Source of the DNA: Phycisphaerae bacterium
GTDB taxonomy: Bacteria > Planctomycetota > Phycisphaerae > SM23-33
Direction of reading: 5' to 3'
NCBI GenBank assembly: GCA_018335035.1
Contig: JAGXKT010000009.1
Span: 1 to 64,000 of the forward strand
DNA length: 64,000 nt
Positions 8,417 to 15,115 of the stretch are shown here, in pieces. The position numbers and the translations under genes are program-made. The notes beneath the pieces are model-generated. The model did not search any database. It had not been told where the DNA came from and was given only the letters and a program-made list of their open reading frames with translations. Position 1 is the first letter of the stretch; each line of letters begins with the position of its first letter.

Positions 8417-10939
8417 GTGGATTCCTTCACGCTGAACAAGATCGAGTTCGACGCTGTCCGGGAAATCCTCTCGGGCTACGCCCTGACTGCGCCGGGCCGG
8501 GCTCTCGCCCGGCGGATCCGCCCGTCCCGCAATCCCGAAACCGTTCGTCGTTGGCTGGAGCAGACCTCACAGATGGTCACGGCGATCCGCGACGTGGGGC
8601 TGCCCCCCATGGCGGGGGCTACGGACATCTCGGAGGCCCTGTCGCGCGCCGCGCCCGGCGGGGGGGGCGGCGGGGAGGACTTCGCCGCCATTGCCGCGGC
8701 ATTGCGCGCCGCGGGCAACGTTCGGGCGTATCTCGAACGGCTGCCCGAGGCGCTCGGCGCGCTGCAATCGCTGGCCGGACAGATCAGCCGCTTTGACGGC
8801 GAATGCAAGGCGATCGCGGCCGTCATCGACGCCGGCGGCGCCGTGCGGGACGACGCGTCTGATCGCCTCGCCGAACTGCGGCGCAGCATTGCCCGAACGA
8901 CACAGGAGGTGCACGACGTCATCTACGGCTACCTGCGAACGCCCGAGGTGACCAAGCTGCTCCAGCAGCCGACCGTCACGCTGCACGGGGACCGCTACGT
9001 GCTGCCGGTGCGTGCCGACAACCGTGGGCGGCTGCCGGGCGTGGTGCATCGCGAGTCGAATACGGGCGCGACCGTGTTCGTCGAGCCCACCGCCAGCGTC
9101 GAGCTGAACAACCGCCTGGCGGACCTGCGCAGCGACGAACGCCAGGAGGTCGAGCGCCTGCTGCACGGCCTGGCGGTACGGCTGCATCCGCGACACGAGG
9201 AGATCGATGCGACGATGCGCGCCGTGGCGCGCGTTGATCTCCTCGCGGCGAAGGCGCAGTACGCATATCAGCAGACCATGACGTGCCCGGAAATCTGCGA
9301 ACGCGGTTCGCTGGAGATGGCGCAGATACGGCATCCGCTGCTTCTGGCGTCGGCCACCCAACGTGACCGCGACGAGGACGCCGCCGCCGAGGCGGTCGTC
9401 CCGATCGACGTGCGCCTGGGCGACGATTTCGATCTGCTCGTCATTACCGGCCCGAATACGGGCGGCAAGACGGTGGCACTGAAATCGGTGGCGCTGCTGG
9501 TGGTGATGGCCCAGAGTGGCATGCACATTCCCGCCCGACGGGGGGCGCGCCTTCCGGTGTTTCGCGACGTGTTCATCGACGTCGGAGACGAGCAATCACT
9601 CCAGCAGTCACTCAGCACATTCGGCGCCCACATCAAGCGCATTCGCCACATTCTCGACAAATGCGGCAAGGCGTCGCTGGTGCTGCTGGACGAACTGGGC
9701 GCCGGGACGGACCCGGACGAGGGCGGCGCCATCGGGCAGGCGATTCTCGACGAGTTAGGCCGGCGGGGAGCCCTGGGCATGGTCACCACCCACTTGAGCG
9801 TGCTGAAGGCCTACGCGATGACGCACGAGCGCGTCGACAACGCGTCCGTTGAGTTTGACACGCGGTCGCTTCGCCCGACCTATCACCTGCGTATCGGCAC
9901 GCCGGGCGAAAGCCACGCGATCACCGTCGCCCGGCGGCTCGGGCTGGCCAAACGCATCGTCGACGCCGCTGAGCGGCATCGCGACGGGCAGAACCGCCAG
10001 TTTCGCAAGGCCCTGCGCGCCACGGGTGAGGCGCGGCAACTGGCGGAGCGCGCGCGGGCCGATGCGACAGAAGCGCGGCTTGCCGCCGAAGGCGACCAGG
10101 AGGTCTACCAATCGAAGCTGGCCGAACTGCATCGGCTTCAGGAAGAGTTCGACACGTGGCTGGCGACGCTGCCCGACTGGCAACCGGGCGACGAGATCTA
10201 CGTGCCGTCGTTGGGACGCACCGGACGCCTCGTGCGCCTGGAGCTTCATAAGCAGGTCGCCGTTCTGGACGCCGGGCACGCGCAGATCGAGGTCCCCCTG
10301 CGCGAGTTGATGCCGGACCTCGGTCAATCGCGCGTGCGAGAGGAAATCGCAACGCTGCGACAGCAGGTGATCGACCAGGCGCGCCAGACCAAGCAGGCCC
10401 GCGCCCAAGCCGAACGGATGCGGAAGGAATATCACGAGAGCTTGAAGCGCCAGCAAACCCGCGCCCGGCAGTTTGATGCCTGGCTGGGCCGCGTGGCGCG
10501 AATGCGCACCGGCGACGAAGTCCCCATCACGCGCAAGCCGGGCCGCGGTACGCTGAAGACCGTCGATCTGCCGGCCCTGAAGGCCACCGTCGCAACGCCC
10601 GAGGGGACCCTCGAACTGTCGCTCCAGGACCTGTTCCCCCAGACTGGTCCGTTTGCCCCGTCGCACGAGCGGAAGCATCGCACCGGCCGGTCGAGGGCCC
10701 GCCGCCGATCGGACCGCGGCAATCGGCCCGTCAAACACCGTCGCCCGGACAGCAAGGCCGCCCGCGCCAGCCGCGAGGCCCTGCGACGCGCCGAGCCCGG
10801 CAGCGAGGTCTACGTCGTGCCGTTCGGCAAGCGGGCAACGCTCGTCCGCGTCGAACCGGACAGGGACCAGGCCGTCGTGCAGAGCGGCGTGTTCGAGATG
10901 ACCATCGGGCTGGCTGATCTTGAACCAGTAAACCGCTAA
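8417..10939 (+). CDS. mutS2: MutS2 family ATPase lacking the Smr domain
   Basis: The 840-residue protein begins like MutS2 (residues 1-30 with KIEFDAVREILSGYA) and has the MutS core and ATPase domains: Walker A TGPNTGGKTVALKSVAL near residue 344, and Walker B with signature LVLLDELGAGTDPDEGG near 421. A coiled coil of about 510-580 follows. Known MutS2 proteins (about 780 residues) end in an Smr nuclease domain and have one KOW-like module. Here the C terminus has three KOW-like modules (near residues 591, 695 and 793; GDEIYVPSLGRTGRLVRLEL, GDEVPITRKPGRGTLKTV, GSEVYVVPFGKRATLVRVE), joined by a very basic linker, and no LDLRG or HGxGxG sequence. MutS2 acts in resolving collided ribosomes or suppressing recombination. 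The GTG start fits the family. Confidence 0.92.
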   Translation: MDSFTLNKIEFDAVREILSGYALTAPGRALARRIRPSRNPETVRRWLEQTSQMVTAIRDVGLPPMAGATDISEALSRAAPGGGGGGEDFAAIAAALRAAGNVRAYLERLPEALGALQSLAGQISRFDGECKAIAAVIDAGGAVRDDASDRLAELRRSIARTTQEVHDVIYGYLRTPEVTKLLQQPTVTLHGDRYVLPVRADNRGRLPGVVHRESNTGATVFVEPTASVELNNRLADLRSDERQEVERLLHGLAVRLHPRHEEIDATMRAVARVDLLAAKAQYAYQQTMTCPEICERGSLEMAQIRHPLLLASATQRDRDEDAAAEAVVPIDVRLGDDFDLLVITGPNTGGKTVALKSVALLVVMAQSGMHIPARRGARLPVFRDVFIDVGDEQSLQQSLSTFGAHIKRIRHILDKCGKASLVLLDELGAGTDPDEGGAIGQAILDELGRRGALGMVTTHLSVLKAYAMTHERVDNASVEFDTRSLRPTYHLRIGTPGESHAITVARRLGLAKRIVDAAERHRDGQNRQFRKALRATGEARQLAERARADATEARLAAEGDQEVYQSKLAELHRLQEEFDTWLATLPDWQPGDEIYVPSLGRTGRLVRLELHKQVAVLDAGHAQIEVPLRELMPDLGQSRVREEIATLRQQVIDQARQTKQARAQAERMRKEYHESLKRQQTRARQFDAWLGRVARMRTGDEVPITRKPGRGTLKTVDLPALKATVATPEGTLELSLQDLFPQTGPFAPSHERKHRTGRSRARRRSDRGNRPVKHRRPDSKAARASREALRRAEPGSEVYVVPFGKRATLVRVEPDRDQAVVQSGVFEMTIGLADLEPVNR

Positions 10940-11360: not shown

Positions 11361-12719
11361 CTACGTCTTGACGGCGTCGATGGTCACGGCAGTAATGGGC
11401 CCGAAGACCAACAGCGGCGTCCATGCTGACCACACCGGCGGTAGGTCGATGTAGCGGCAGAGATGGACGAAGATGTAGAACGCTCCGACCGTCAGAAGAC
11501 ACAGCACGGCCGAGGCCTTGATGTTGCGCTCGCGCGACAGGATGAACGGCAGCCCGACCAGAAGCATGATCACGTTGTTGATCGGCTCGGTGACCCGGAT
11601 GTGAATGAGTTGGCGGGCGTTCTGCGCGGTCGTGTCGCCCCGTGCGCGTTTCTGGCGCGCGAGTTTGTTGAGTTGCGCCGCCGAGAGGAACTCCATCCAA
11701 CGACTGTCACGGCGGAGAACGAGATCGTCGACGGTGAACGTGGAGCGGACGAAGGCGCGCCCGCCCGTCAGGCGCCAATGGGGCGCGACCTCGTCAGGGG
11801 CGACGTACGTTGCGGCTCGCGCGAGGAAGCGAACCACCTCGACGTCACCGATTCTCAGGATGAATTCCGGCCGGCGCAGCGTCGCCGCCTGAGCCGCCGA
11901 CGGTTCGCCCCGAATCGTGATCGTCATGGCCTGGCCGGGCGAGAGGCGCGGCGCGACCGTCACGGGCCCGTCGCCGCTCAGCAGCCGCTGCAACTGCGGT
12001 CGCGTTGGAATTGCGTCGATGCGATGCGTCGACGGGCGATGCCGCCACACGCCGTGGGCGCGTTCGACGAAGCCGTCCGTGAACATCCAACCGGCTTCGC
12101 CGCCGTGACGGGCGCGTACGGCGTGGGCGTTTGACCCGCTGCGGACGGTCGCAATGTGCTGAAAGTCGGCGTCGCGCACCACGACAACCGGTTGCTGCAT
12201 GACGCCGTCGGCGACGCGAAGCTGCCGTGCGTACCACACGTTTCGGGCGTTTTCATATTCGTCCGGCATCAGTTGAACACTGAACTGCCGGCTGCCGGGC
12301 ACTTCATCGCGATCGCGGACGAGCTCGGATGCCACGGATGGGATCAGCAACTCGTGATCGGCGACGATCAGGCCCGACAACAGCATTGAGCACAACACGA
12401 TCGGCCAGACGACGCGGTGTAAGCTGACGCCCGAGGCGAGCATCGCCGTCAATTCGTTGGTGTGGTTCATGCGCGCCAGCGTGAACATCGCCCCGAACAC
12501 GATGATAATGCCACCCAACTCGGTGAAATACACCACGGATTTGTATCCGTAGTAGCGCGCGATGTACCTGGCCAGCTCGCCGATGGGAAGACCCAGTTTG
12601 GCGAACTCGTCCATGTTGACCAACAGATCCAGCACGATGCGCAGCGTCAGCAGGGACACGAACCCAAGGCAGGTGGCCCAGAGGAAACTTCGCAGGATGT
12701 AGCGGTCCAGCATTCTCAT
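11361..12719 (-). CDS. LptF/LptG-family permease (second of pair)
   Basis: The 452-residue inner-membrane protein has the YjgP/YjgQ layout: three N-terminal transmembrane helices (MRMLDRYILRSFLWATCLGF, VVYFTELGGIIIVFGAMFTL, VVWPIVLCSMLLSGLIVADH), a large periplasmic beta-rich region (about 130-370), and three C-terminal helices (INNVIMLLVGLPFILS, ASAVLCLLTVGAFYIFVHL, WTPLLVFGPITAVTI). Such proteins form the LptF-LptG pair that, with ATPase LptB, extracts lipopolysaccharide from the inner membrane. It follows the other family member by 13 bp, so they are one operon. Start ATG 12719 is preferred to 12713. Which of the two is F or G cannot be settled from sequence alone; this one resembles LptG slightly. 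Confidence 0.85.
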   Translation of the reverse strand: MRMLDRYILRSFLWATCLGFVSLLTLRIVLDLLVNMDEFAKLGLPIGELARYIARYYGYKSVVYFTELGGIIIVFGAMFTLARMNHTNELTAMLASGVSLHRVVWPIVLCSMLLSGLIVADHELLIPSVASELVRDRDEVPGSRQFSVQLMPDEYENARNVWYARQLRVADGVMQQPVVVVRDADFQHIATVRSGSNAHAVRARHGGEAGWMFTDGFVERAHGVWRHRPSTHRIDAIPTRPQLQRLLSGDGPVTVAPRLSPGQAMTITIRGEPSAAQAATLRRPEFILRIGDVEVVRFLARAATYVAPDEVAPHWRLTGGRAFVRSTFTVDDLVLRRDSRWMEFLSAAQLNKLARQKRARGDTTAQNARQLIHIRVTEPINNVIMLLVGLPFILSRERNIKASAVLCLLTVGAFYIFVHLCRYIDLPPVWSAWTPLLVFGPITAVTIDAVKT

Positions 12720-12732
12720 AATCGTCGCGCCG

Positions 12733-14424
12733 CTAGTGGCGCGCGAGGTGCACGTAAACCCATATGCAGCCGACCAGCAAGGCCACGACCCCCGCCCACA
12801 CCACACCGACGCCGAGGAGCAGGGGAACGTCAGGATGGCGGGCCATCTCCTTGCCCATCAGGATCATCACGAAGACCACGCCGCCGGGGATCAGCGACAG
12901 CACGAACGCGCTGAGCAGTTGCCCGCCGTGGAATATCACGCCCAGTGCGGCGCCGAATGCCACCAGCAAGAAGCAACTCGCGCCGTACGACAGCCGCAGG
13001 TTCAGCTCGGCGATCAGGTCCGCCCGCTGGCGGGCGATCTCGCGGTCCAGCGACGCGATGCGCGAACGAATGTGCTCGTTGCGCGTAATGCCGCTGTTGG
13101 CGTCGAGCAACTGGGCCAAAGGAATCCGCTCGGCCCGGCGCAGAGGCGCTGCGGGCAAGGCGTCGTAGACGCGCCACTCTTCACGGCCGGTAAGACGCGT
13201 GCCGCCGACGGCCCGGACGGCGGCCTCCGTCAGGACGATGCTCGCCCGTGAGCGATTGGTTCGCGGGTCGTAGTCCGTTTCGATGTGTCCGACGTCGGCC
13301 GTAGCTGCCTTGGGCAGTACCGCCTGCCACGTGCTCCGTGCGGCCAACGCGCCGCCGAAACCGCCCACGGCGGCCATGCTCGCCTGCTCCGCCCAGGCCG
13401 GACGCTCGGGGTCCGCCGCGACGAAACTGACGCACACCGGCTGCGTATCGTTGCCGCGCAGCTCCACGCTGCCTCGTCCCGTCGGGCGGGCCGACGGGGC
13501 TCGCAGCACGTACGTGCGCCCGTGGGCCGTAAACCGCCAACTGTTGCCCGTGCTAAGTTCCTCGGCGATACGGGCGCAAAACAGATCGTGGGCGATCAAC
13601 CGACGCACCTCGGCGAGTTTTCGGGCCACGGCCGATATGATCGTCGGATTGCTCACGCCGCGGCGGAGCTTATCAAGCGTGTAAAAACGCGGCTTGTCCT
13701 CCATGGGATTGGGCAATTCGACCGGCGGTATGGATTGGCGCGCCGCCCGTCCGTGCCGTGGGCCTGCGGTGCCGCTGACACCGATGACGTCCACGGCCAG
13801 GTAGTGCGTGCCGTACTCGTCCGTGAAGAAGTGCGGCCGGGCGCTTTCAACGGAAATGACGGCGGGTTGTGCGTCCTCACCGCGTCGGTACACGGCCACC
13901 ACGTCCCGCAGCACGTTGGCCTCCGAGTCCGGCCTCGCGCGCAGCGTGAGCTGTTCGCCTCGCGCCGGGCTGCCCTGCAGATATCCGCGCGTGCGCAGGC
14001 GGCTGTAGACCATGCCCTCGATGTTCGCCTTGATCTTCCGCTCGGCGAGGCCCGACATGCGCGGGGCGACGAAGTTGCTCAGCAGCATGGCCGCCGCCGT
14101 GACGATCGCGGCCAGCAGCAAACCCGGCACCAGCACAGACGGCGTCGAGATGCCGCTGGCGCGGCAGGCCAGCAGTTCGCGATCCTGGCTGAATCGCCCG
14201 TATACGATCGTGGCGGCAAAGAGCGATGCTACGGGCATGGAAAACGACAGCATCACCGGCAGCGTGTACACGATGAGCATGCCCGCCTGGCGGGGCGAGA
14301 GGCCCTGCTGGCGCAGGGGCTCGATGATCGTCAAAATGGTCAGAATCAGCGTAAACGCCGCCAGCGCCAGCAGCGTCACGCGGACCAGGTCACGGGCAAG
14401 GTATGCGTGTAGCGTTCGGGTCAC
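12733..14424 (-). CDS. LptF/LptG-family permease (first of pair)
   Basis: The 563-residue protein has the same LptF/LptG layout as its downstream neighbour: N-terminal helices (LLALAAFTLILTILTII, AGMLIVYTLPVMLSFSMPVA, GLLLAAIVTAAAMLL), a long periplasmic part (about 130-460) and three C-terminal helices. The segment FAATIVYGRFSQDRELLACRASGIS is the conserved cytoplasmic coupling loop. The periplasmic part is some 100 residues longer than in the partner. The gene starts with GTG at 14424 after GGAGAG. With kdsB nearby it argues for a lipopolysaccharide-bearing outer membrane. Confidence 0.85.
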   Translation of the reverse strand: MTRTLHAYLARDLVRVTLLALAAFTLILTILTIIEPLRQQGLSPRQAGMLIVYTLPVMLSFSMPVASLFAATIVYGRFSQDRELLACRASGISTPSVLVPGLLLAAIVTAAAMLLSNFVAPRMSGLAERKIKANIEGMVYSRLRTRGYLQGSPARGEQLTLRARPDSEANVLRDVVAVYRRGEDAQPAVISVESARPHFFTDEYGTHYLAVDVIGVSGTAGPRHGRAARQSIPPVELPNPMEDKPRFYTLDKLRRGVSNPTIISAVARKLAEVRRLIAHDLFCARIAEELSTGNSWRFTAHGRTYVLRAPSARPTGRGSVELRGNDTQPVCVSFVAADPERPAWAEQASMAAVGGFGGALAARSTWQAVLPKAATADVGHIETDYDPRTNRSRASIVLTEAAVRAVGGTRLTGREEWRVYDALPAAPLRRAERIPLAQLLDANSGITRNEHIRSRIASLDREIARQRADLIAELNLRLSYGASCFLLVAFGAALGVIFHGGQLLSAFVLSLIPGGVVFVMILMGKEMARHPDVPLLLGVGVVWAGVVALLVGCIWVYVHLARH

Positions 14425-15041: not shown

Positions 15042-15115
15042 GCGCCCGTAGCTCAGCAGGACAGAGCACCGGTTTCCTAAACCGGAGGTCCCAGGTTCGA
15101 GCCCTGGCGGGCGTA
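15042..15115 (+). tRNA. tRNA-Arg (anticodon CCT)
   Basis: The 74-nt stretch folds into a cloverleaf: acceptor GCGCCCG/CGGGCGT, anticodon stem ACCGG/CCGGA region around the loop TTTCCTAAA with anticodon CCT at 15076-15078, and T arm CCAGG-TTCGAGC-CCTGG. It reads AGG codons. CCA is not encoded. Confidence 0.95.

Follow-up and report, generated by a model that had tools for sequence, protein, structure and literature searches.

The window analysed was a stretch of 64,000 nucleotides from a Phycisphaerae bacterium, and among its genes is one encoding a MutS2-like protein of 840 amino acids (Table 1). The whole protein matched the NCBIfam family TIGR01069 (mutS2) with 656.7 bits over residues 5-577 against a cut-off of 400, a Pfam search of the protein gave a match to PF00488 at residues 341-521, and a PDB sequence search matched the solved MutS2 chains 7qv3 and 8qpp to residues 5-575 with an E-value of about 1e-109. 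Foldseek matches for the MutS2 core were 7qv3 and 9kce. MutS domains I and II are missing while the core, the clamp and the domain V ATPase with both Walker motifs are present, and these are followed by a coiled coil and then a KOW/MSSS domain, as in MutS2. The H-loop TTH was also intact, and the three catalytic motifs were invariant or nearly so among relatives, including N347 to T352 of Walker A in 22 relatives, where position 346 was either P or S. An intact ATPase had been claimed in a preliminary description of this DNA and is confirmed by these motifs. The ORF encodes a protein of the MutS2 clade with a non-canonical architecture that lacks the C-terminal Smr domain, rather than a canonical MutS2.

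Convergent with mutS2, the reverse strand at 11361-14424 carries two ORFs for membrane proteins that overlap each other and look LptG/LptF-like by eye. Only the convergent downstream gene recurred in the gene neighbourhood, at 15 of 58 related loci, many of which had short flanks. Two tRNA genes (Rfam RF00005) at 598-671 on the reverse strand and 15042-15115 on the forward strand were the sole RNA families above threshold in the window.

Table 1. Features of the mutS2 gene and its product, with positions in the window
Feature	Residues	Position	Strand	Basis or remark
mutS2 gene	840 aa	8417..10939	+	GTG start, TAA stop
Core/lever/clamp and MutS domain V ATPase	1-519	8417..9973	+	TIGR01069, PF00488, PDB, Foldseek
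Walker A, GPNTGGKT	345-352	9449..9472	+	sequence; conservation in relatives
Walker B, LVLLDE	421-426	9677..9694	+	D425 and E426 invariant in relatives
Long helix 1	512-587	9950..10177	+	AlphaFold2
KOW1 barrel	593-631	10193..10309	+	KOW HMM 9.6e-17; AlphaFold2
Long helix 2, in duplicated helix+KOW unit	637-695	10325..10501	+	AlphaFold2; hhalign
KOW2 barrel, most diverged copy	701-739	10517..10633	+	AlphaFold2; hhalign
Basic disordered linker	745-779	10649..10753	+	pLDDT < 50 at 745-771; net charge
KOW3 barrel, nearest canonical MutS2 KOW	791-840	10787..10936	+	MSSS 794-835; canonical KOW HMM 41.6 bits
KOW3 loop, VQSGVFEM	821-828	10877..10900	+	aligned to B. subtilis MutS2 V667-M674 (8qpp/7qv3)

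Anatomy of the three-KOW tail

The Pfam family MSSS, the KOW/SH3 domain of MutS2, was matched with a total E-value of 1.5e-15 in two stretches, of which the best was at residues 794-835. An HMM built solely from single-KOW planctomycete MutS2 proteins matched residues 589-631 (9.6e-17), 694-739 (0.26) and 792-835 (8e-10), the KOW2 region being weak in this protein but scoring down to 2.8e-6 in homologues. AlphaFold2 models of the tail, for which 22 sequences were used, contained three small beta barrels at residues 593-631, 701-739 and 797-837 and a short helix at 780-790, while the low pTM (0.32) means that the model does not define how the barrels are arranged with respect to one another. 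Among the matches in a Foldseek search with the tail were tandem-KOW and Tudor proteins and also disome-bound Bacillus subtilis MutS2, whose KOW (8r55_z) was aligned at 1.4 A over 49 columns with 33% identity. The HMM matches and predicted barrels agree with the three KOW-like modules described earlier. That these are linked by a very basic stretch was correct for KOW2 and KOW3 and incorrect for KOW1 and KOW2, which are joined by a helix of 59 residues. The KOW2-KOW3 linker region carries a net charge of +12 over 43 residues, and its length and sequence vary, yet it was net positive in 25 of the 25 members compared.

Profiles of the tail units were compared by hhalign, the E-values of which apply to single comparisons and are not database significances. 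Unit 1 (residues 522-638) was aligned with unit 2 (639-750) at a probability of 99.06% over 88 columns, which take in the latter portion of the helix as well as the entire KOW, and the probabilities for the individual modules were 97.8% for KOW1-KOW2, 98.3% for KOW1-KOW3 and 95.8% for KOW2-KOW3. The three KOW profiles reached a maximum of 3.4% against core windows of the same alignment. Given this homology among the units relative to the core windows, the tail is a tandem helix and KOW duplication with a third KOW behind a basic disordered linker. A chance match at KOW2 was ruled out by the same comparison.

In B. subtilis MutS2 the KOW makes its uS10 contact by a loop that includes Q668, I671, L672 and K673, the joint mutation of which reduces ribosome binding, and this loop has been equated with NusG F165 (PMC10897456). 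The corresponding loops of 25 members were aligned using an HMM from canonical KOWs. In KOW3 the positions of G670, L672 and K673 were occupied by G, F and E in 25/25 and Q was found at position 668 in 17/25, so that the K673 equivalent is charge-reversed to Glu in every member, while KOW1 was variable at the contact loop and KOW2 could not be aligned there. Scored with the canonical KOW HMM, KOW3 had a median of 32.0, KOW1 of 23.4 and KOW2 of 4.3. As judged from these alignments, a canonical-type contact loop appears to be kept by KOW3 only, and KOW3 would be the putative ribosome-docking copy, with the Glu in place of K673 as a caution.

Absence of Smr and history of the KOW copies

The canonical MutS2 architecture includes a C-terminal Smr domain and is described by the 790 positions of the full TIGR01069 model. 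No match to Smr (PF01713) was obtained in the 840-aa protein even at E<=10, in six frames of its own genome (2.74 Mb, 96.8% complete) or in any of the 38 genomes of the same order, and no Smr fold that could carry the DxH and GxG nuclease motifs of SmrB-like proteins was present in the protein or the genome. All 22 full-length members from the order matched MSSS and none matched Smr, and their C-termini coincide with the end of this ORF, give or take short tails. The absence of Smr noted in the preliminary description was thus upheld. A frameshift just past 10939, which it had raised, or a truncation, and a stand-alone Smr nuclease with which the protein might work were both ruled out as explanations of the Smr-less MutS2, since the relatives end at the same point, no Smr occurs in any frame and the 38 genomes of the order have no Smr.

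A survey of planctomycetes for the same loss, as had been proposed, showed that most of their MutS2 proteins are without Smr. Across the class, 17 of 248 genomes contained Smr, and across the phylum 36 of 294 did. Of the 38 genomes of the order, 30 had MutS2 above the cut-off, and matches at E<1e-70 were found in 92/248 of the class and 94/294 of the phylum. Only six of the 92 class matches and five of the 94 phylum matches reached the Smr end of the model, a few more of the latter having Smr on another contig, and nearly all remaining complete MutS2 proteins in both sets stop after the KOW. Three-KOW tails were found at 29 loci in 84,980 named genomes, all of them planctomycete assemblies and many labelled Phycisphaerae, in a scan with two peptide patterns, to which uncommon or more divergent examples in other groups would be invisible.

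In a tree built from 95 core domains, all three-KOW proteins, all two-KOW proteins and all Smr-bearing planctomycete proteins each formed a clade of their own, with SH-aLRT values of 100, 99 and 99, respectively. In a tree rooted with MutS2 of Bacillota, Fusobacteriota and Bacteroidota as outgroup, the 840-aa protein was nested within planctomycete MutS2, the Smr-less planctomycete proteins formed one clade (100/97), the three-KOW clade was recovered (100/100) and the two-KOW clade was nested among single-KOW proteins, while five Smr-bearing planctomycete rows grouped more weakly (87/41). The single Smr-less clade indicates that Smr was lost once, early in Planctomycetota, and the KOW expansion was a later and separate event at the base of this order. 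The earlier statement that KOW modules replaced the C terminus is accordingly right as to the missing Smr and the three KOWs, and it merged these two events into one. The two-KOW form is most simply an independent gain; an ancestor with two KOWs common to both clades, with later losses, is possible but less simple given the nesting among single-KOW proteins.

Several other planctomycete forms were observed. The two-KOW proteins (L127-L137) come from one family of the class (f20), have exactly two KOW modules with a Pro/basic-rich linker between them, mostly carry long low-complexity tails after the modules and form a clade distinct from the three-KOW form. In two proteins from other classes of the phylum (L113, L123) the chain runs on past the KOW for over 100 residues as a long Gly/Arg-rich (RGG-like) tail. 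Some class genomes, of families f10 and f21, encode a single-KOW MutS2 with a long coiled coil that groups away from other MutS2 of the class (L046-L051) and was possibly acquired by transfer within the phylum. Stand-alone Smr-like ORFs of 126-169 aa were seen in another family (f15; L040, G057, G164, G244), in which MutS2 itself is Smr-less with a single KOW.

RqcH and the proposed function

None of the 248 class genomes, the present one included, had RqcH (searched for as NFACT_N) above the cut-off, while 10 control genomes were positive. Weak NFACT_N matches in 61 class genomes were dismissed as noise, as they scored 18-27 bits, below the cut-off, and nearly all covered only positions of about 140-270 of 456. 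Within the class, MutS2 was missing at E<1e-70 in 156/248 genomes, RqcH being undetected in all 248. Outside the class, RqcH was found in 49 of the 64 MutS2-bearing genomes of the phylum, comprising 6/7 with an Smr-bearing MutS2 and 43/57 with other architectures. This co-occurrence of Smr-less MutS2 with RqcH shows that loss of Smr alone does not remove MutS2 from ribosome rescue. In a published survey MutS2 was present in 97% of genomes with RqcH and absent from 87% of those without (PMC11633108), so that a class which keeps MutS2 in the absence of RqcH is an exception to this pattern. SmpB was found in the present genome, and trans-translation is therefore probably available.

While the anatomy and history above were computed, the function has to be inferred. 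The reading we prefer, to which we give an even chance, is that the protein would use its ATPase, with no nuclease, to split stalled ribosomes after docking through its KOW modules, and would work without RqcH. A dimer, which is the state of the MutS2 family, would bear six KOW barrels on long arms. KOW3 would dock on uS10 as in B. subtilis, and the extra KOWs and the basic linker may contact rRNA, ribosomal proteins or ribosomes next in the queue. KOW avidity, in place of an Smr wedge between them, would then pick out the queued ribosomes, the extra copies perhaps regaining what Smr had supplied, and ATP hydrolysis would split the lead ribosome with no need for a nuclease step, leaving the obstructed 50S to be cleared by a factor other than RqcH. 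In B. subtilis, MutS2 splits ribosomes with no mRNA cutting, and SMR mutants bind poorly but retain partial rescue, for which the authors suggest that KOW-uS10 contacts may suffice (PMC10897456). This makes the earlier suggestion that the protein binds collided ribosomes without cutting less odd, and it is the one that we also prefer.

Ribosome splitting is favoured by the MutS2 core and ATPase, the three homologous barrels, the conserved KOW3 loop and the Smr-less relatives that co-occur with RqcH. It is opposed by the Glu at the K673 contact position and by the absence of RqcH from the whole class, which also fits a role outside ribosome quality control. KOW barrels moreover bind other proteins and nucleic acids. 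Deletion of SMR also strongly lowers ribosome binding in B. subtilis (PMC10897456). The main rival is a role on DNA, either MSH4/5-like or as an anti-recombination MutS2, in which the core would clamp Holliday junctions or D-loops and the KOWs and linker would add nucleic-acid contacts, again with no nuclease. Binding to branched DNA is known for the MutS2 cores of other species from work cited in PMC12292046, and the lack of RqcH in the class, the positive charge of the KOW2-KOW3 linker and the chromatin and transcription-elongation KOW/Tudor proteins among the Foldseek matches would suit such a role. The putative canonical-type uS10-contact loop of KOW3, the ribosome binding of the closest solved KOW-bearing relative and the presence of RqcH alongside Smr-less relatives outside the class, however, make it a rather unlikely one.

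It is unlikelier still that the KOW array is a NusG/Spt5-like or general ribosome tether that docks constitutively while the ATPase serves recycling or dormancy, with no sensing of collisions. The Phe of the KOW3 loop at the position equated with NusG F165, the DSIF and archaeal Spt5 KOW domains returned by Foldseek and the missing Smr collision sensor are consistent with this, but the protein retains the ATPase and clamp of a splitting factor, and profile searches found no NGN domain in it. Decay of MutS2 in a lineage without RqcH, with the KOW copies as neutral leftovers on the way to loss, would agree with the strong divergence of KOW2 and with the match to MutS2 at E<1e-70 in only 92/248 class genomes. 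Nevertheless, 22 full-length members of the order share the catalytic motifs, three barrels and end point, and the G, F and E of the KOW3 loop are the same in 25/25. An architecture conserved throughout the order suggests that the protein is functional, and decay is very improbable.

Comparison with known systems

In published work the role of collision sensor in bacteria is assigned to Smr, and MutS2 is regarded as partnering RqcH. That a large class keeps MutS2 mostly without Smr and RqcH, and that two of its lineages multiplied the KOW, raises the testable question of whether Smr is needed for collision recognition or KOW avidity is enough, and the further question of what clears split 50S when RqcH is absent. 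A more far-reaching idea, which is tentative and on balance doubtful, is that a MutS2 free of Smr and RqcH with multiplied KOWs (six per dimer) may replace the Smr sensor by multivalent docking and so give bacteria a second means of recognising ribosomes that have stalled or collided, which would have arisen a single time in this order by triplication and, independently, by duplication in another family of planctomycetes.

A MutS2 without Smr is as such already known from plant plastid MutS2A (PMC12292046) and is also seen here in plasmid-borne proteins of Bacillales, while the part of the literature covered contained no description of Planctomycetota-wide Smr loss, multiplied KOWs or a class-wide MutS2 without RqcH. 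Plant MutS2A belongs to a eukaryotic organelle and has a paralogue with Smr, MutS2B, whereas the present genome has neither a paralogue of that kind nor any Smr. The Bacillales proteins, of about 650 aa (L178 from a Paenibacillus plasmid, L179 from a Cytobacillus plasmid), form a separate lineage in the tree and differ from the three-KOW form in having a single KOW-like stretch by eye and no long coiled coil. One of them is annotated as endonuclease MutS2 and the other as MutS. For the Smr-less MutS2 of the present class, the name endonuclease MutS2 is misleading. Other planctomycete MutS2 proteins (e.g. L046-L067 and L102-L126) are likewise Smr-less and end after the KOW but have only one, and the f20 proteins have two where the present protein has three.

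The protein resembles B. subtilis MutS2 (7qv3, 8qpp, 8r55) in its core, clamp and ATPase (370 bits), in the coiled coil followed by a KOW of the same fold (1.4 A, 49 columns) and, on the preferred reading, in that mRNA cleavage would not be needed. B. subtilis MutS2, in contrast, has one KOW, a C-terminal Smr and RqcH as its partner, compared with three KOWs, no Smr and a class without RqcH here. The Bacteroidetes KOW-SMR proteins likewise use a KOW, set beside their collision-sensing module (PMC10897456), but they have an Smr with DxH and no MutS ATPase.
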